A stretch of DNA of 64,000 nt from Lancefieldella rimae ATCC 49626. GTDB lineage: Bacteria; Actinomycetota; Coriobacteriia; Coriobacteriales; Atopobiaceae. Position numbers and translations under genes: made by a program. Location: the NCBI RefSeq assembly GCF_000174015.1, contig NZ_ACFE01000001.1, forward strand, positions 248,001 through 312,000, given 5' to 3'. Shown here one piece after another: positions 7,857 to 16,108 of this stretch (within the stretch, counting starts at the first letter, position 1; each line of letters begins with the position of its first letter). A model generated the notes under the pieces. That model saw only the letters and a list, made by a program, of their open reading frames with translations, searched no databases and was not told the origin of the DNA.

Positions 7857-9137
7857 CTACGCCGTAATAATCGATGCCTTAAGTGTAGCGTCCTTTAAAA
7901 CAGATTCAAAATGTACCGGCACAAGTGAGTCAAGCGGGATGTCCTCATCAATCATTACGTCAAAAAGGCCGCTTGAAACCGCTTTGCCCGGACGCTGCAC
8001 AATAACCAAATCGGTGCTTCCGACGAGACTTTGTGCGTTTTCGTAGCGCATCTTTTTTGCAAGCTCACGCATTTTATGGGCGCGCGCCGCCATTATCTGC
8101 GGCGGAACCTGGTTGGGGGCGTCTGCCGCCGGCGTACCGGGACGTTTTGAGTACCGAAAGAGATGCATCTTTGAAAAATTCATTTCCTTACAAAACGCAT
8201 ACGATTCCTCAAATTCTTCTTCCGTTTCTCCCGGAAATCCAACGATGAGATCGGTGCCAAGAGCTACCTGCGGAAGATACGTACGTGCCGCAGCAACGGC
8301 ACTGCGATAGAGCTCAGCTCCATATGCACGTCTCATACGGTGCAGCGTCTCGTCGCAGCCGGACTGCAGGCATATATGTAAAAAGGGCGCTATACGACCA
8401 TGGGACGCCGCAATGGACTCGAGAAGAGCTTCATTCACGTCAGGAGGCTCAAGCGAAGACAGACGCACACGCTCTATCGTTGTTTTTCTCAATATAAGAC
8501 GTAAAAGCCCGGGAAGCCGCACGTCCTTCTCGGCAAAGCGCGAGGTATAGCTACCCAAATTAATGCCGGTAAGCACCACTTCATGAGCTCCGGCTTCCTG
8601 GGCTTCTTGGATTTGCCTCAATACCTCAGCCGGATCAAGCGAGCGAGCAGCTCCTCGTGCCTTCCACACAATACAATAACTGCAGCGATTATTGCAGCCG
8701 TCCTGAATCTTGATACCCGGACGGGTGCGTCCGGTAGGAGTTGGCTTTTGCAGGAGGTACCCCTCATCGGTGACTCCGTCAAGAGCACAGCCAAGCTCCT
8801 GCATCACCACTTCGGCAACCATGTCTTTGCGTGTCTCAACGACAACATTGGGCGCCAGAGAGGAAAGTTCGTCTGCAAAAAGACTTGCGACACACCCGGT
8901 TGCCACAACAAGAGGCGCATGCGGAAGAGCCGCCGCATGGCGTATGGCCTTCCTTGTTTTTGCCTCCGCCTCTGCGGTCACGGCGCAGGTATTAACAATA
9001 ATAGCCGCGGCATCCTTGGGTTCTACAATCGCACAGCCAAGTTGTATAAGGTCGGAAGCCATAAGATCAAGCTCAACACGGTTGACACGGCACCCTAAGT
9101 TGAGCAGAGCCACTCCTTTGGCCTCTTTGTTTGCCAT
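7857..9137 (-). CDS. mtaB: Radical-SAM methylthiotransferase, MtaB-like
   Basis: Predicted tRNA (t6A37) C2-methylthiotransferase making ms2t6A, using two 4Fe-4S clusters. The 426-residue protein has the UPF0004 cluster cysteines C16, C51 and C82, the radical-SAM triad CNNRCSYC (C148, C152, C155) and a C-terminal TRAM-like segment. The N-terminal VNRVELDLMASDLIQLG and VNTCAVTAEAEAKTRK patterns match MtaB better than MiaB or RimO; this subfamily call is by eye. It starts two bases after the dnaJ stop with a weak Shine-Dalgarno, so it is probably translated by coupling with dnaJ, a neighbour arrangement common in Gram-positives. Confidence 0.88.
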   Translation of the reverse strand: MANKEAKGVALLNLGCRVNRVELDLMASDLIQLGCAIVEPKDAAAIIVNTCAVTAEAEAKTRKAIRHAAALPHAPLVVATGCVASLFADELSSLAPNVVVETRKDMVAEVVMQELGCALDGVTDEGYLLQKPTPTGRTRPGIKIQDGCNNRCSYCIVWKARGAARSLDPAEVLRQIQEAQEAGAHEVVLTGINLGSYTSRFAEKDVRLPGLLRLILRKTTIERVRLSSLEPPDVNEALLESIAASHGRIAPFLHICLQSGCDETLHRMRRAYGAELYRSAVAAARTYLPQVALGTDLIVGFPGETEEEFEESYAFCKEMNFSKMHLFRYSKRPGTPAADAPNQVPPQIMAARAHKMRELAKKMRYENAQSLVGSTDLVIVQRPGKAVSSGLFDVMIDEDIPLDSLVPVHFESVLKDATLKASIITA

Positions 9138-9138
9138 A

Positions 9139-10314
9139 CTACTTTCTCGATTTCTTATGCGGTCGTGGATGCTTCTTTTTTGCCTCGGAGGCAGCTTCTT
9201 TTATGTCTTTTTCAGACAGAACGTCCGAGCTTCTTTGGGCGACAAGAGCGGCAAGATCCAACAGTTGCGCAGAGGTAAGATCCGTTGGCGTAGTGATTTG
9301 AACCATTACTATGAGATTACCTCGAGCAATTCCATTCACCTGAGGCATGCCGTGATTACTCACTATGATTTGCTGACCATATTGACATCCGGCAGGAATT
9401 TTTACCTCAACACGTTCGTCTTGCATAATACCGTCAACCATGACGGACGTTCCCACAATGGCCTGAAGCGAGTCTATGGAAACGCTCATGTACAGATCGT
9501 CTCCACGGCGCTCAAACGTCTCGTGAGGAGAAACTTCCACGGTTACAATGAGGTCTCCCGTTGTGTCCCCACGCACACCGGCCTCTCCCTTTCCTTTAAT
9601 GACAAGAGACTGACCGGAATGAATGCCGGCGGGAATATCGATACGCAGGTGCTCGTGATCGGGAGTACGACCTTCTCCCCCACACGTTTCGCAGGGCTTA
9701 TCAATCTTTTTTCCGGTACCGGCGCACTCGGGACAAACCGCCTGCGTCTGCATTTGACCGAAAACCGTTTTTTGAACCTGTACGACCGCGCCCGTTCCTT
9801 TGCAACGCGGGCACGTTGTTATATGTCCTCCTTCTGCCACGCCGGATCCGTTGCAGTCATCACAGGGAGACAGTCTATCGTAGGCGATTGTTTTATGCGT
9901 CCCACAAGCGGCTTCCTCAAGAGTAATGGAGAGATGTATGGCCATATCCGAGCCGCGCGTCCGTGTATGCGCACCACCGTGGCCCGATCTTCCTCCAAAG
10001 AATGAATCAAAAATATCGCTGAAGCCGCCAAAACCTCCGCCAAAAATATCGGACATATCAACATAGCTTGAAGAGCCGCCAAAACCGGCAGGGCCGCTTG
10101 CATCTCCGTATCGGTCATAGTTGGCACGCTTGGTTTCATCGGAAAGAACGGAGTATGCCTCGTTAACCTCTTTAAAAAGAGCTTCGGCATTAGGATCATC
10201 CGATACGTCCGGATGCAGCTTACGGGCTTTCTTCAAAAACGCTCGCTTGATGGTACGCTGGTCGGCGTCCTTCTCAACTTCCAAAACCTCGTAATAGTCC
10301 CGCTTTGGTTTCAC
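9139..10314 (-). CDS. dnaJ: Chaperone DnaJ
   Basis: Type I Hsp40 co-chaperone that delivers clients to DnaK and stimulates its ATPase. The 391-residue protein has a J domain (about 5-70, HPD at 34-36), a Gly/Phe-rich linker with GGGFGGFSDIFDSFFGG, a zinc domain with four CxxCxGxG-type repeats (CDDCNGSG, CPRCKGTG, CPECAGTG, CETCGGEG), two C-terminal substrate domains and a Lys/Arg-rich tail. The start is GTG behind GGGGGA. dnaK, grpE and hrcA are not adjacent; instead a second DnaJ-like gene lies just upstream. Confidence 0.96.
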   Translation of the reverse strand: MKPKRDYYEVLEVEKDADQRTIKRAFLKKARKLHPDVSDDPNAEALFKEVNEAYSVLSDETKRANYDRYGDASGPAGFGGSSSYVDMSDIFGGGFGGFSDIFDSFFGGRSGHGGAHTRTRGSDMAIHLSITLEEAACGTHKTIAYDRLSPCDDCNGSGVAEGGHITTCPRCKGTGAVVQVQKTVFGQMQTQAVCPECAGTGKKIDKPCETCGGEGRTPDHEHLRIDIPAGIHSGQSLVIKGKGEAGVRGDTTGDLIVTVEVSPHETFERRGDDLYMSVSIDSLQAIVGTSVMVDGIMQDERVEVKIPAGCQYGQQIIVSNHGMPQVNGIARGNLIVMVQITTPTDLTSAQLLDLAALVAQRSSDVLSEKDIKEAASEAKKKHPRPHKKSRK

Positions 10315-10354
10315 GCTTAACGTCCCCCATTACCTACGAACTTGTGTGTCTTTT

Positions 10355-10384
10355 GCGAGAAGAACGGCCTTGCGTCCTTCTCGC
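10355..10384. repeat. Second inverted pair of the CGAGAAG motif
   Basis: GCGAGAAG and CTTCTCGC arms separated by 14 nt in the short gap between the two dnaJ genes. It could act as a weak hairpin, but there is no U-tract. It is one of two intergenic inverted pairs of the over-represented motif. Confidence 0.5.
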
Positions 10385-10404
10385 TTCTCCTTACAAAATA
10401 TCTC

Positions 10405-11502
10405 CTACCAGCGGCCTAAACCAGCCGTACAGGAAAAGAACATATAGGCAACCAGTGCCCACGCAATGCCTGTCAGAGCGCCGTTTACTACCGCATAGCC
10501 AAGATTTCTCCACCAACGCTGCGACCGTTTAATGCCGTCGCCTACGATATTTCTTACGCCAAAAACAACCAGCATCGCAACAATAATCGTACCCAGAAGA
10601 GAAGCACCCGTAGCTAGGTCAACCGCAAAAAATGGGAGTGCTATGCCAATTGCTCGCGCACCCATTGACTGGCGCAGGGTAACTTGTTCTTCCGGAACGC
10701 GCACGCGCACGACAAAATCGCCTGTCTTTGAGCCGTTTGTACCGGCGTTACCCTTGCCCTCCATGCGAATTTCATCTCCGTCGTGCGCATGAGGCGGAAC
10801 ATTCACCACCGCTTCGCTGGCACTCAGTACCCTTCCTGAGCCACCACACGCCTCGCACGGATCCGCCACCACATGTCCGGTTCCTTCACACTCAGGACAT
10901 TCCATCTCAACGGTACCAAAACCAAAAATACCCGAAAGATCCACGTGAATATGACCAGTTCCCCCACACGTAGGACAGGTAGAGGAAGCTTCGCTGTGAT
11001 GTACTGAGCCGGAACCGTGACAGGCCTCACACGCAGAAAAACGCTGATAGGTGATGCCCTTACGTACACCCTCTTGAGCCTGCATGGGCGTAAGGGTCAA
11101 ATCATATTCAATATCGGCACCGGTTTGCGGCTTGTATGCCCGTGAGCGCCGTGAACCTTGCGAGCGCCACGAGGAGAAATCCACACCGCCAAAAGGAAAT
11201 CCCCAACCAAAGGGATCTTGACCGTATGAATTTGAGCCTGCAGGCGATCCGGAAGGACCATAACCGCCCGCAAAGGGATTACCCGAGCGCATTGCATCGT
11301 AGCGACGACGCTTTCCCTCATCAGAAAGTACCGCATACGCTTCAGAAACTTCTTTGAAGCGCGCTTCCGCATCGGGTGCTTTATTAACATCGGGGTGTAG
11401 TTTACGTGCTTTTACCTGAAACGCCTTACGGATTTCTTCGGTAGTAGCAGTCTCTGAGACTTCGAGAATGACGTAATAGTCCTTCTCGTTCATCGATGCC
11501 AT
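10405..11502 (-). CDS. Membrane-anchored DnaJ-like protein
   Basis: J-domain protein of 365 residues. The J domain is intact (HPD at 36-38). It is followed by a Gly/Phe linker with GGYGPSGSPAG and GWGFPFGG and by a complete four-repeat zinc domain (CEACHGSG, CPTCGGTG, CPECEGTG, CEACGGSG). The first substrate-binding domain begins normally (VVNVPPHAHDGDEI, TGDFVVRVRVPEE). Where a type I DnaJ continues into the rest of that domain, this protein instead has hydrophobic helices at about 298-316 and 336-356, separated by a basic segment (GIKRSQRWWRN). A cytoplasmic J domain tethered to the membrane is inferred, perhaps recruiting DnaK to membrane or secreted clients. It sits between hemW and dnaJ, the place often held by hrcA. 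No frameshift is visible. Confidence 0.88.
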   Translation of the reverse strand: MASMNEKDYYVILEVSETATTEEIRKAFQVKARKLHPDVNKAPDAEARFKEVSEAYAVLSDEGKRRRYDAMRSGNPFAGGYGPSGSPAGSNSYGQDPFGWGFPFGGVDFSSWRSQGSRRSRAYKPQTGADIEYDLTLTPMQAQEGVRKGITYQRFSACEACHGSGSVHHSEASSTCPTCGGTGHIHVDLSGIFGFGTVEMECPECEGTGHVVADPCEACGGSGRVLSASEAVVNVPPHAHDGDEIRMEGKGNAGTNGSKTGDFVVRVRVPEEQVTLRQSMGARAIGIALPFFAVDLATGASLLGTIIVAMLVVFGVRNIVGDGIKRSQRWWRNLGYAVVNGALTGIAWALVAYMFFSCTAGLGRW

Positions 11503-11573
11503 GCAGTATCTCCAACCATGTGATTAAATTATTGCGAACCGAACCTCGCAAATTGTACCCACAAATACCAATG

Positions 11574-12827
11574 TTAATGCAAATCCCAAAGACGTCCATA
11601 GAGTTCGTTGCCCAAAAGCCAGCCTGACTCCGTGGGTACCAAAGCACCGGCTGCGGTTCTGGCGAGAAGACCATCGTGCACACAGCTCTCCAGTGTCCCC
11701 TCCACTCGCTCTTTTCCAAGAACTTCCTGTGCATATGCTACCAAAGACGGTGACAGTCCCTGCGTAAGGCGGGCTCCGAGCATAAGGTCTTCAGCCGCGG
11801 CTTCACAGACGTCCAAAAACTCAACGTCAAACGATGTGTCCGCAAGTGTCTTTCCGGCTGCAATTGATTGCCGGGCGTCGCATACCTTGAGTCGAGCCCG
11901 AAATGCGTCTTTTGGAGGCTGCGGAAGTGAGGTTTGTATCGTACAAAGCTTATCGTAGCCTTCACGTGTCAACATGGACGCCGCTCCCGTGCCAAGCCCT
12001 ATATATGGCTGAGCAGTCCAATAGCTAAGATTATGCCGACAGACTTTGTGATTTCGTGCATAGCTTGCCACTTCATAGCGAGCATAACCTGCGGCTTTAA
12101 GGATCTTCTCGGCCTCTTCCATACGGCCGGCTTGTACGTCTGGGCCATTCCAAGGCGTCTTTGCACCTGCCGTTTGTTTTGCAAGCGGCGTGCCCTCTTC
12201 AATGGACAATGGATACACGCTCACGTGGTCCACATCAAGCTCCAAAAACGTTGCAAGCGTTTGCTGCCACGATTTTTGTGTTTGACCCTTTAAGGCGCAC
12301 ATGACATCACACGACACGTCAAAGCCCATGGAAGCGGCAGCACGCGCCCGATCAAACGCCTGCTTCGCGCTGTGAATGCGGCCAAGCCAGAGAAGCTCCG
12401 CATCACAAAAACTCTGCACTCCCAAAGAAATACGAGTTGTACCCGCATCTTTGAGCACGAGAAGTACCTCATCGGTAAGTGAATCCGGATTTGCCTCACA
12501 CGAGAATTCGGCAATGGGAGCCTTTGCGCGAATGCACGAAACGAGCCGGCCAAGTTCTGCTCCCAAAAGAGTTGGCGTCCCCCCACCCACATACGCACTT
12601 TGGCAATCTTCAAGCAACCCCAACGCATACGCTTCTTGAATCTGAGATTCAATCGCAGCCTCATAGCGAGCCATCAGCGGGTCGGAAGATGCCGTAGCCC
12701 ACGAGGCAAAATCACAATAGACACACTTATGAGCACAAAACGGGATGTGCACATAGAGCGCTTGTACGCCATTCAAATGCAACCGTTCCGACCAACTGCA
12801 TTCTGGCCTATCACTAGCGCCCAGCAT
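11574..12827 (-). CDS. hemW: Radical-SAM protein HemW (coproporphyrinogen III oxidase-like)
   Basis: Member of the HemN/HemW radical-SAM family. HemW proteins are heme chaperones rather than coproporphyrinogen dehydrogenases. The ~417-residue protein has CAHKCVYC (C31, C35, C38) at the very N-terminus after VQALYVHIPF, followed by YVGGGTPTLLG and FSCEANPDSLT. The C-terminal HemN-C domain is present. The N-terminus lacks the extra leader of true HemN. The frame is open nine codons further up, but the ATG at 12827 has GAGG at correct spacing and overlaps the dus stop by 14 bases. The hemW-dnaJ neighbourhood is the usual Gram-positive one, though hrcA is missing. Confidence 0.9.
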   Translation of the reverse strand: MLGASDRPECSWSERLHLNGVQALYVHIPFCAHKCVYCDFASWATASSDPLMARYEAAIESQIQEAYALGLLEDCQSAYVGGGTPTLLGAELGRLVSCIRAKAPIAEFSCEANPDSLTDEVLLVLKDAGTTRISLGVQSFCDAELLWLGRIHSAKQAFDRARAAASMGFDVSCDVMCALKGQTQKSWQQTLATFLELDVDHVSVYPLSIEEGTPLAKQTAGAKTPWNGPDVQAGRMEEAEKILKAAGYARYEVASYARNHKVCRHNLSYWTAQPYIGLGTGAASMLTREGYDKLCTIQTSLPQPPKDAFRARLKVCDARQSIAAGKTLADTSFDVEFLDVCEAAAEDLMLGARLTQGLSPSLVAYAQEVLGKERVEGTLESCVHDGLLARTAAGALVPTESGWLLGNELYGRLWDLH

Positions 12828-13911
12828 AATCCTCACGTTCCGGATCAATCTCATTCGTCACGCAAAAGAGCAACTCATCGGCAAGACGTATAAAATCGGA
12901 TGCCGTTACGCAACGAACCGAACGTCCGCGCCAATACGCCGCATGAGGTACCCCGCGAAAATACCATGTTGAAAGGCTGCGCGCTCGCGCAATATGAATA
13001 TGGGCGGCTTCCAGAAGATGCACGTGGAGCTTAAACGCAGACAGACGCTGGGAGAGCGTTGGGCAAAACAGCTCTTTTTCAGCACAGGCCCTTCTGGTAT
13101 TTGCAAATATCCAAGGATCTCCATAGGTACCGCGCGCAAGCATGACTGCGGATATCCCTGTTGTTTTGAGTACACGAGCAGCGTCATGGGCGCTCATTAC
13201 ATCCCCTGAGCCAATAACCGGAATTGAAACCGCACAGACCACGCGCTCCACGCAGTTCCAATCAGCCTTGCCCTGATAGAGCTGCGAGGCAAAGCGCCCG
13301 TGAACGGTTACCGCCGCCGCTCCCGCCGCTTCCAAGGCTCGCGCGAACTCAGGTGCACATTCTGAACCTACGGTGCGTCCCCGGCGAATCTTTGCCGTAA
13401 CCGGTACGTCTACCTCTGAGATACACGCACGTACAATCTCCGCCGCACGAACGGGATTGTCGAGAAGAGCCGATCCCTCCCCTTTTTTGACAACTTTCGG
13501 CACGGGACACGCCATGTTGATGTCGATAAGAGCCAGCTTTGGCCCAAGACGTTCGGCTATCTGAGAGGCTGCCTCACGAAACTGTTCAGGTTTTGACCCA
13601 AACAACTGAACCGCAATGTCCGGCTCAGGATCAAGCGGATATACAAGCTGCCAGGTTTTCTCGCCCCCAAAGTGGATGCCTGCCACAGAAACCATCTCGG
13701 TATAGGCAAGAGCTGCTCCACCCGCTCGTGCAAGAAGGCGGTATGCCCCATCGCTCACGCCTGCCATCGGTGCCATAAGAACCGGATTGTGTGCTAAGCG
13801 TTCGCGCAGGCTATTCCCTGATGTAAACGGTACAAGAGAATCGTCAAGACCCGCTGAGTCCGCCTCTTGTTTGAGAATTTCCGCTATATCCCCACTCACA
13901 AAATCACTCAT
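12814..13911 (-). CDS. dus: tRNA-dihydrouridine synthase
   Basis: Flavin-dependent enzyme that reduces uridine to dihydrouridine in the tRNA D-loop. The 365-residue protein has the FMN-barrel start [18 protein letters not shown], the catalytic-cysteine segment [20 protein letters not shown], and the tRNA/FMN-binding [18 protein letters not shown] and VIGSGDV motifs. It is DusB-like by overall pattern. The C-terminal part is somewhat divergent. Start ATG (13911) overlaps the lepA stop; a TTG two codons earlier is possible but less likely. Confidence 0.92.
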
Positions 13912-15715
13912 CGTCAACTTTCAAAACCGCCAGGAAGGCTTCTTGCGGAACTTCCACAGAACCAATCTGCTTCATGCGCTTCTTTCCCTCTTTTTGCTTT
14001 TCCAACAGCTTGCGCTTGCGGGAAATATCGCCTCCATAGCACTTTGCCAACACATCCTTGCGGCGAGCGCGGACCGTGGAGCGAGAAATAATCTTGTTAC
14101 CGATGGCACCTTGAATGGGCACCTCAAAGAGCTGCTGCGGAATGATGCCCTTGAGCCGATCGCACAGACCGCGCGCAAGACTATATGCCTTGTCTTTATG
14201 CACGATAAACGACAGGGCATCCACCACATCTCCCGCCAGCAAAATGTCAAGCTTCACCAGATCGGACGGGCGATAATCATCAAACTCGTAATCAAGTGAC
14301 GCATAACCTTTTGTACGGCTTTTGAGCTGATCAAAGAAGTCAAGAATAAGCTCTGCCAGAGGAATAGAAAGATGCATCTCAACCGATTTATCGGTCAGAT
14401 ATACCATATCTTCAGAGATACCGCGGTGATCCACAACCAACTGCATAACCGCACCAACATATTCCGGAGGCACAATAATCTTTGCCTTCAGATACGGCTC
14501 TTCAATGCGATCGATACGCGTTACGTCAGGTAGATCCTGAGGGCTTGTAATTTCAACCATAGAGCCATCGGTTTTGTACACGTGATAGTCCACCGAGGGA
14601 CTTGTGGCAATAAGATCAAGGTCAAACTCACGCTCAAGGCGTTCTTTAACCACTTCCATATGAAGAAGCCCCAAAAATCCTACGCGAAAGCCAAAACCGA
14701 GCGCCACGGAGGTTTCGGGAGTCCATGTCAGCGAGGGATCGTTTACACGCAGCTTATCAAGGGCATCGCGAAGGTTTTCATATTGTTTGTTGTCAATGGG
14801 GAAAAGCCCAGTAAACACCATGGGCTTTGCTTCACGATATCCCGGAAGAGGCATTTCACATGGATGGTCCCTATACGTCAGAGTATCTCCCACATGCACG
14901 GCTCCGGGATCTTTTAAGCCGGTAACCACATAACCTACCTCGCCCACAGAAAGAGAATCAAACGCCACTTCAAGCGGACGTTTGGCGCCAACTTCTTCAA
15001 CAAGAAACGGTGTGGCAGCCTGCATCATCAAAAGCTGATTTCCGGCTTTGATAGAGCCGTCAAAGACGCGAACCGTTGCCACTACACCTCTGAACTGATC
15101 AAAATACGAGTCCAAAATCAAAGCCTTAAGCGGCGCGTTCTTGTCCCCTTTTGGCGGAGAAACAAGATAGACAATTGCCTCGAGAAGATCGTGGATCCCT
15201 TCACCGGTTTTTCCCGAAACGCACACGGCATCATCAGCCGGAATGGCAAGGCTGTCTTCAATCTCTGCCTTTACTTCATCAGGATGCGCCGAGGGTAAAT
15301 CTATTTTATTGATGGCGGGAACAATGTCTAAATCCGCGTTCATGGCAAGCATGGCATTTGAAACCGTTTGTGCCTCAACACCCTGCGTTGAATCCACTAC
15401 CAGCACCGCTCCTTCGCATGCAGCGAGAGAACGAGAGACTTCGTAGGTAAAGTCAACATGACCGGGAGTATCAATCAAATTGAATTGATAGCGCTCACCA
15501 TCGTCTGCGTCATACATGACGCGGACGGCATTCGATTTGATGGTGATACCGCGCTCACGTTCAATATCCATAGTATCCAGCAGCTGAGAGTCCATATCGC
15601 GCTCTTCAACGGTATGGGTAAGCTCCAAGATGCGATCGCTGATGGTTGATTTCCCGTGATCGATGTGCGCAACAATGGAAAAGTTGCGGATATGTAATGT
15701 GTCGTATGTATTCAT
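13904..15715 (-). CDS. lepA: Elongation factor 4 (LepA)
   Basis: Translational GTPase that acts on stalled or mis-translocated ribosomes and in initiation/assembly. 603 residues with G1 AHIDHGKST at 16-24, [10 protein letters not shown] (G2), [12 protein letters not shown] (G3), NKIDLPSA (G4), domains II and III, and the LepA-specific C-terminal domain ending in [20 protein letters not shown]. No truncation. Divergent from rpsT, with a short shared promoter region. Confidence 0.97.
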
Positions 15716-15747
15716 AAAGAAAATAATAGCTCATACCGAGCACATCG

Positions 15748-15756
15748 TGCTATACT
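15748..15756 (+). promoter_or_regulatory. Extended -10 promoter element of rpsT
   Basis: TGC followed by TATACT, about 67 nt before the rpsT start, with no good -35 hexamer. The same extended -10 layout (TGC plus TATAAT-like) recurs at three other promoters in this window. Confidence 0.45.
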
Positions 15757-15822
15757 TTTACAGCTGTCCTCATCGTGTCTCAGCGTAGAGGCCTCACATT
15801 GTACATTCGAAAGGAACTACAC

Positions 15823-16086
15823 GTGGCTAACATTAAGTCTCAGAAAAAGCGCATTCTCACCGCTGAGAAGGCACGTCAGCGCAACAAGGCTGTCCGCTCC
15901 GAGCTCAAGACCGCCGTTAAGCATGTTCGCGCTGCTGTCGAAGCCGGCGAAAAAGATGCAGCTCAACTTGCAGCTAATAAGGCGGGTCGTCTTCTTGATA
16001 AAGCTGCTTCCAAGGGTATCATTCACAAGAACCAGGCAGCCAAGCGCAAGAGTGGCGTTCAGAAACTCGTGAACACACTTTCATAA
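15823..16086 (+). CDS. rpsT: 30S ribosomal protein bS20
   Basis: Primary 16S rRNA-binding protein of the small subunit. The 87-residue, strongly basic, all-helical protein starts (M)ANIKSQKKRILTAEKARQRN and ends QKLVNTLS, matching the family in length and sequence. The start is GTG at 15823, eight bases after AAAGGA; the longer upstream frame has no ribosome-binding site. Monocistronic between its own promoter and a strong terminator, and divergent from lepA (the rpsT/lepA/holA neighbourhood is common). Confidence 0.97.
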   Translation: MANIKSQKKRILTAEKARQRNKAVRSELKTAVKHVRAAVEAGEKDAAQLAANKAGRLLDKAASKGIIHKNQAAKRKSGVQKLVNTLS

Positions 16087-16108
16087 ACGCTGCACTCACT
16101 ACGATGTC

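Follow-up and report, generated by a model that had tools for sequence, protein, structure and literature searches.

A DnaJ homologue with a predicted C-terminal membrane module, conserved in two families of Coriobacteriales

Genes and features at the dnaJTM locus

The DNA analysed here, referred to as the window, is a stretch of 64,000 nucleotides from Lancefieldella rimae ATCC 49626. In this window, a gene for an aberrant DnaJ homologue, designated dnaJTM, is situated between hemW and dnaJ2, which encodes an ordinary class A DnaJ (Table 1). Gene names at the locus other than those of DnaJ and HrcA, hemW included, are assigned from family knowledge and are presumptive.

Table 1. Location of dnaJTM, its domains and its neighbours in the window
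Feature	Coordinates	Strand	Basis
hemW, upstream neighbour of dnaJTM	11574..12854	-	frame list; name presumed from family knowledge
-10-like promoter element GGGTACAAT before dnaJTM	11552..11560	-	motif scan of upstream regions
dnaJTM, DnaJ with predicted C-terminal membrane module	10405..11502	-	frame of 365 aa, Pfam, homologue alignment
J domain, residues 8-69	11296..11481	-	Pfam; HPD 36-38 in 48/48 distinct homologues
Gly/Phe-rich linker, residues 70-127, with conserved PF and G.PF residues	11122..11295	-	by eye from alignment
CTD-I, first part, residues 128-157, two strands	11032..11121	-	model and structure match
Zinc domain, residues 158-223, four CxxCxGxG motifs	10834..11031	-	Pfam; each of 8 Cys in 48/48 distinct homologues
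CTD-I, second part, residues 224-271, three strands; end of DnaJ-like region	10690..10833	-	model and structure match
Predicted membrane helix 1, residues 276-298	10609..10677	-	model and homologue hydropathy
Predicted membrane helix 2, residues 302-321	10540..10599	-	model and homologue hydropathy
Positively charged WW segment and predicted membrane helix 3, residues 328-359	10426..10521	-	model and homologues; C358 in 47/48
Ordinary class A DnaJ (DnaJ2), comparison copy	9139..10314	-	Pfam, NCBIfam, structure model

The -10-like element follows the pattern G(G/T)NTA(C/G/T)ANT, which was picked after inspection of the upstream sequences and is present in 36 of 48 distinct upstream regions, starting 46-77 bases before the start codon (shuffled sequences: mean 0.7, maximum 4). 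Due to this element dnaJTM probably starts its own transcript. Right after it, at 11532-11551, a perfect inverted repeat TTGCGA-N8-TCGCAA is located, which could be a candidate operator. With up to one mismatch this repeat was found at seven places in the genome compared to three for the reversed control, the copy at 11532-11551 being the single perfect one. It occurs with one mismatch in L005, the closest named relative, and by eye is absent from the other upstream regions compared, except for those of close relatives. The gap between dnaJTM and dnaJ2 (10315-10404) contains an 8-bp inverted repeat, GCGAGAAG...CTTCTCGC, with no T run after it in gene direction and, by eye, not clearly kept in L005.

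Domain composition and point of change

The dnaJTM frame is open from ATG to stop without interruption, and the J domain and all four zinc repeats are intact, as an earlier note made from the sequence of the window had claimed. Conservation was assessed on 58 homologous proteins, which were reduced to 48 distinct ones by merging identical sequences; L001-L004, L014, L015, L041, and L065 are not part of this set, and the tail matches L072 and L073 were missed by its start pattern. Among these 48 proteins the J domain is the best-conserved region with a mean majority frequency of 0.89.

Of the 152 positions of the DnaJ_C profile, dnaJTM covers 1-78 only, and the neighbouring DnaJ2 covers 3-152. 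Similarly, the score of dnaJTM against the NCBIfam model DnaJ_bact (TIGR02349), 244.7 bits, is below the cut-off of 377.2 bits, and that of the neighbour, 394.4 bits, is above. Considering the half-match to the Pfam profile and the score below the NCBIfam cut-off, dnaJTM is DnaJ-like up to approximately residue 272 and of other sequence beyond.

An AlphaFold2 model of dnaJTM was calculated from ten input sequences (mean pLDDT 61, pTM 0.46), with block confidences of 78-90 at residues 271-350, 63 at 351-360, and merely 43-69 in the J domain. In this model CTD-I comprises five strands (131-136, 146-157, 224-235, 244-247, and 263-268). VIA-align superimposed residues 126-271 on residues 116-260 of S. 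pneumoniae DnaJ (6jzb; 141 residues at an rmsd of 10.0, Z 10.5) and on residues 112-256 of Ydj1 (1nlt; 139 residues at an rmsd of 7.6, Z 9.5). We ascribe these high rmsd values to the mobility of the zinc domain; several DnaJ structures were matched without the zinc domain at an rmsd of 2-3 over approximately 70-80 residues. The top Foldseek match of the whole model is 6jzb as well (E 2.4e-8, TM-score by query 0.25). Due to the presence of the zinc insertion, the modelled beta-sandwich is regarded as CTD-I and not as CTD-II, which has the same fold.

As a control, DnaJ2 was modelled with the same pipeline from five sequences (pLDDT 62, pTM 0.34). Behind the corresponding CTD-I strands, the last of which is at residues 255-261, its model continues with the strands of CTD-II (267-341) and with one helix (348-364). 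The earlier note had placed the change within the first C-terminal domain, where the neighbour carries the motif SLQAIVGTSV. This motif corresponds to residues 282-291 of DnaJ2 and is thus situated beyond the last CTD-I strand and among the CTD-II strands, which identifies CTD-II and the dimerisation domain as the replaced part. Hence the hydrophobic nature of the C-terminus stands, and a disruption of CTD-I does not. The CTD-II sandwich is absent from dnaJTM, given that the DnaJ_C match ends at position 78 of 152 and helices instead of strands are predicted past residue 271; likewise the C-terminal dimerisation domain is absent, since the protein stops after three predicted helices. It is well supported by computation that CTD-I of dnaJTM is complete and that CTD-II and the dimerisation domain are replaced by a predicted membrane module.

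The predicted membrane module

The tail comprises about 90 residues from approximately residue 272 onwards and is predicted to form three membrane helices with the N-terminus inside. Two helices had been proposed in the earlier note; the first hydrophobic block, which spans approximately 40 residues (284-324), is predicted as two helices, resulting in a count of three (Table 1). The top 19-residue hydropathy past residue 270 is at least 2.03 in all 48 distinct homologues. For the C-terminal part of the neighbouring DnaJs the corresponding value is at most 1.69 (23 of 25 proteins, two of odd length being excluded). Averaged over the 48 homologues, hydropathy amounts to 1.08 for helix 1 (lowest row 0.56), 2.14 for helix 2, and 1.49 for helix 3. 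Because its value is below those of the other two, helix 1 might also be a re-entrant or surface segment.

Helices 2 and 3 are joined by a loop with, on average, 3.25 K/R versus 0.85 D/E, the net charge of which is positive in 47 of 48 homologues; nearly no charge is present in the turn that connects helices 1 and 2. The extreme C-terminus is slightly positive (mean 1.27 K/R, zero D/E), which weakens the positive-inside argument for a C-terminus on the outside. The predicted topology consists of a cytoplasmic N-terminus, a hairpin of helices 1 and 2, a cytoplasmic loop with W330-W331 and Lys/Arg residues, and an outer C-terminus, the latter being the least certain step.

G281, G286, P290, W330, W331, G341, and C358 are conserved in at least 90% of the 48 homologues, with W330 present in all of them and C358, near the end of helix 3, in all but one. 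No known Pfam family was found for the tail, the matches being weak, scattered, and mostly restricted to single members (best E 0.0062, in 1 of 10 members). With VIA-align the tail matched half of aquaporin 3 (Z up to 6.8, rmsd 5.2, 90 residues), which is within the uninformative range of the tool.

Occurrence in Atopobiaceae and a sister family

A scan of contigs yielded nine near-full-length relatives with 53-88% identity as well as two distant partial matches; phyla beyond that of the window were covered by this pattern scan. The nine relatives are assigned to Atopobium, Olsenella, Parafannyhessea, Atopobiaceae, Coriobacteriaceae, or Coriobacteriia and have the same architecture when aligned. 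A normal soluble C-terminus in relatives or a soluble fold predicted for the C-terminal segment would have spoken against the reading of the earlier note; the homologues share the predicted membrane C-terminus, and the segment is predicted to be helical and hydrophobic.

For the census we distinguish the Atopobiaceae, the family of the window (f1), and the groups f3 and f2, which we take to be Coriobacteriaceae and Eggerthellaceae, respectively. In a draw from the class, a tail-only profile matched 132 of 296 genomes, namely 79 of f1, 52 of f3, and G032, whose match (E 7e-4, 41 aa, two stops) was counted as noise; the matches include no f2 genome. In a draw of 396 genomes from the phylum, all 23 tail matches belong to f1 (10) or f3 (13). 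Altogether the tail was found in 134 of 140 f1 genomes (100 of 101 good ones) and in 64 of 65 genomes of the sister family f3 (57 of 57 good ones), i.e., in 198 of 205 genomes of both families. The one good f1 genome without a tail match is G719, which is 91% complete and split into 310 contigs.

The matching genomes gave one tail match each, except for G239 (f3) with a second piece at a contig edge. A stop codon within the matched stretch was observed in 9 of 134 f1 and 1 of 64 f3 genomes, and in case of G044, G056, and G291 this codon is the regular stop of the gene. Tail matches in frames of less than 300 aa were encountered in G234 and G694 of f1 and in G239 and G659 of f3. The conclusion of the earlier note that the clean frame argues for a real architecture agrees with this census: the architecture of dnaJTM is real, conserved, and unusual.

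Descent and selection

The 21 membrane proteins are united in a single clade (support 100/99) of a 46-row tree, and the seven f3 rows group inside this clade, with a support of 100/100 in this tree and 94/86 in a second one. The 46-row tree was built without the DnaJ2 proteins of L055, L067, L018, and L019, and its sole far outgroup, L014, is a long branch itself; the second tree left out L014 and L067_TM as long branches. The membrane proteins are separated from the other DnaJs by a long branch of approximately 2.2 changes per column in the 46-row tree and 3.0 in the second tree, both root halves added. A single clade of the membrane proteins and the DnaJ2 proteins of f1 and f3 was not rejected by the AU test (p 0.512), and an origin of dnaJTM by tandem duplication of the neighbouring gene is neither shown nor excluded by these sequences. 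Computation shows that dnaJTM is inherited vertically and occurs as a single copy in two families of Coriobacteriales.

Selection was estimated from 123 non-independent pairs with 80-99.5% identity and measurable dS. The median dN/dS is 0.170 for the J domain with the G/F linker, 0.173 for CTD-I with the zinc domain, and 0.352 (up to 0.757) for the tail, which thus changes approximately twice as fast as the soluble part. For the tail of the window's protein and that of L005, dN is 0.13 and dS is 1.26. Judged from these codon comparisons, the tail is kept as a protein sequence under purifying selection with a looser constraint, as expected for membrane helices.

Gene order and relation to hrcA

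The common order in 24 neighbourhoods is lepA-dus-hemW-(dnaJTM)-(hrcA)-dnaJ-mtaB-phoH-ybeY-dgkA-era, with single genes absent or cut off in some. For the 20 loci with dnaJTM, dnaJ is next in every case and hemW is located upstream in 18; it was not found at L008 and L068, and in L010 and L050 its distance to dnaJTM is at least 1.8 kb. In the four loci without dnaJTM (L062, L063, and L064 of f2, L066 of f8), hrcA directly precedes dnaJ, and in three of them hemW precedes hrcA. According to the earlier note, dnaJTM occupies the place normally held by hrcA. This holds for the window, where dnaJTM is found between hemW and dnaJ as hrcA is in the outer relatives, and where a search of the whole genome gave no HrcA. 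A replacement of hrcA by dnaJTM is rejected as stated, since four of the 20 loci (L013, L050, L051, and L052) retain both genes side by side in the order hemW-dnaJTM-hrcA-dnaJ. From these four loci we conclude that dnaJTM was inserted between hemW and hrcA and that most descendants subsequently lost hrcA. In the class draw, HrcA is present in five f1 genomes (G092, G098, G190, G241, and G285); it is missing in 74 of 79 f1 and in 52 of 52 f3 genomes, all of which contain dnaJTM.

A CIRCE-like site with 2-4 mismatches precedes hrcA in all four f2 and f8 loci. With up to five mismatches allowed, none was detected in the four loci with dnaJTM and hrcA or at positions 8900-16100 of the window. Genome-wide, CIRCE at up to three mismatches was observed in all eight hrcA-containing genomes tested and in none of the four without; the reversed control matched at one place in one genome, G074. 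The remaining CIRCE in G190 and G241, which possess both dnaJTM and hrcA, precedes genes identified by eye as groES-groEL. At L013, L050, L051, and L052, a stepwise loss of the HrcA regulon in the Coriobacteriales is traceable. A search of the window for HAIR-like sites gave no convincing match (best 3 mismatches).

Comparison with known J proteins

According to the accessible text of PMC12799103, class A proteins consist of J domain, G/F region, CTD-I with zinc domain, CTD-II, and dimerisation domain, and the zinc domain with its eight Cys is diagnostic. As far as the available parts of PMC12799103 and PMC8215388 state, class A DnaJ is by far the most widely distributed of the J proteins, and its sandwiches and dimer are central to client holding; the latter source describes soluble class A and B proteins as dimers with up to four weak client sites. 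Like the class A proteins Ydj1 and DnaJA2, dnaJTM possesses a J domain with HPD, a G/F linker, and a zinc domain with four CxxCxGxG motifs in CTD-I, and its fold matches 6jzb and 1nlt. It differs from them by the lack of CTD-II and the dimerisation domain, by the predicted membrane module in their stead, and by a score below the DnaJ_bact cut-off. Farnesylated Ydj1 and DNAJA1 or DNAJA2 are class A J proteins attached to membranes at the C-terminus as well, but in their case a lipid anchors the complete protein, with CTD-II and the dimer kept.

DjlB and DjlC of E. coli have an N-terminal J domain and a single anchor, and no zinc or CTD-I domain. They resemble dnaJTM as J proteins tail-anchored in the membrane, but belong to class C and have HscC as partner, as given in the accessible part of PMC8215388. 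The E. coli class C protein DjlA is a J protein at the cytoplasmic membrane as well, with a cytoplasmic J domain and DnaK as partner; in the portions of PMC11709261 that are available, it is described as starting with a single helix, with a TerB-like domain and with the J domain at the C-terminus, and as lacking a domain specific for substrate binding. In contrast, dnaJTM has three predicted C-terminal helices and an N-terminal J domain and retains the zinc domain and CTD-I. The membrane domain of DjlA is reportedly a dimerisation domain. Type I domains combined with a predicted membrane segment are found in J45 and J46 of Leishmania, where, according to the accessible text of PMC9141911, the single segment is N-terminal (residues 12-32 and 8-31, respectively) and the C-terminal half is not replaced.

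Class C proteins have only the J domain in common with DnaJ, whereas dnaJTM shares the zinc domain and CTD-I too; the membrane segment of class C membrane J proteins is present in dnaJTM by prediction. Since it contains the J domain, G/F linker, zinc domain, and CTD-I and lacks CTD-II and the dimerisation domain, dnaJTM is classified as derived from class A and not as a canonical member. By analogy, it would work like a membrane J protein without being of class C. The architecture is not named in the accessible portions of the literature searched, a body of sources that contains few subscription papers and does not include Barriot 2020, the main survey of bacterial J proteins.

Alternative explanations

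That the architecture results from a frameshift, gene decay to a pseudogene, or faulty assembly of a single genome has a practically negligible probability and is ruled out: nine other contig records share the architecture, the tail occurs in 198 of 205 genomes of two families and is under purifying selection, and the 90 bases to the next gene are too few for a lost CTD-II. The average hydrophobicity of helix 1, which is moderate, would suit a soluble protein in which the helical C-terminus is packed against itself or against a partner instead of spanning the membrane. Such a protein is very improbable in view of the hydropathy peaks in every distinct homologue and of a loop charge pattern that fits a membrane hairpin.

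A membrane-bound thiol or zinc protein, in which the zinc domain acts as oxidoreductase or holdase for the assembly of membrane complexes and the J domain is secondary, would be comparable to the DnaJ-type zinc-finger proteins of plant thylakoids. These plant proteins are not known to contain a J domain, however, and the J domain is the best-conserved part of dnaJTM, with HPD invariant. Hence we give this explanation very little weight, even though each of the eight zinc Cys is invariant, a further Cys near the end of helix 3 is almost so, and a DnaJ-type zinc finger has been reported in a protein of the thylakoid membrane according to a title cited in PMC9407819. The tail could also sense the state of the membrane or envelope, with the J domain releasing or sequestering DnaK and heat-shock control (by HspR, formerly by HrcA) following. 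In agreement with a sensor or regulator of this kind, dnaJTM has its own promoter-like element, adjoins hrcA in the four loci read that keep this gene, and is accompanied by no CIRCE-like site there; moreover, E. coli DjlA, a membrane J protein, acts via DnaK on an envelope signalling pathway, as stated in the accessible part of PMC11709261. Considering that most dnaJTM genomes lack HrcA, its control cannot be the main role of dnaJTM, and the complete module of zinc domain and CTD-I suggests general client binding over sensing alone. Overall we regard a membrane stress sensor as unlikely.

Proposed role and possible meaning

The preferred interpretation is that dnaJTM is a membrane-anchored Hsp40 of class A DnaJ origin, by which DnaK is recruited to the inner face of the membrane; judged from the combination of J domain, zinc domain, and CTD-I with the predicted three-helix tail, we consider this likely. 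The tethered Hsp40 remodelled from a type I DnaJ that the earlier note had envisaged is thereby supported, with location and co-chaperone activity as predictions. The membrane module would fix client binding to the cytoplasmic face of the membrane, where the zinc and CTD-I sites may catch unfolded cytoplasmic segments of membrane or membrane-bound proteins. Given the invariant HPD, the J domain presumably stimulates DnaK at the membrane surface, to which clients would be handed over. Confinement to the membrane, perhaps together with helix-helix pairing of the kind reported for DjlA, would stand in for the avidity that the V-shaped dimer provides to soluble DnaJ.

If so, dnaJTM represents a natural, clade-wide experiment, in which an extra copy gave up the second sandwich together with the dimerisation domain and acquired a membrane module; whether confinement to the membrane can replace dimer avidity may be tested on it directly. 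It suggests that these bacteria operate a DnaK pathway for membrane proteins, and a gene that annotation would call 'DnaJ' may encode a membrane protein. Based on the highly conserved positions of the tail (G281 to C358, see above), it is tempting to speculate, although we consider it rather doubtful, that the three-helix module is an intramembrane domain recognising a partner or client. One protein would then bind both the membrane and the cytoplasmic parts of unassembled membrane proteins and pass them to DnaK. Were this true, these bacteria would possess a dedicated membrane branch of the Hsp70 system and a further build of client-binding J protein, with zinc domain and CTD-I on a membrane base and no CTD-II dimer.

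The cytoplasm would be served by DnaJ2, the soluble class A protein encoded by the adjacent gene, and by a class B DnaJ from the dnaK operon; together with dnaJTM, these are the three J-domain proteins of the window's genome. In L067 (5077-5856; G248, a small genome), the DnaJ2 frame stops at 259 aa past the zinc domain, without CTD-II, dimerisation domain, or membrane tail, which is either a real truncation or an assembly error. A DnaK system is present in the window's genome: in L077, grpE, a class B DnaJ gene, and an HspR-like regulator gene occur together, and the preceding frame resembles the end of DnaK (names by eye). The DnaJ encoded between grpE and the HspR-like gene (L077 1483-2415) has no zinc domain and by eye belongs to class B; thus DnaJ2 is the sole class A protein of this genome that is complete.
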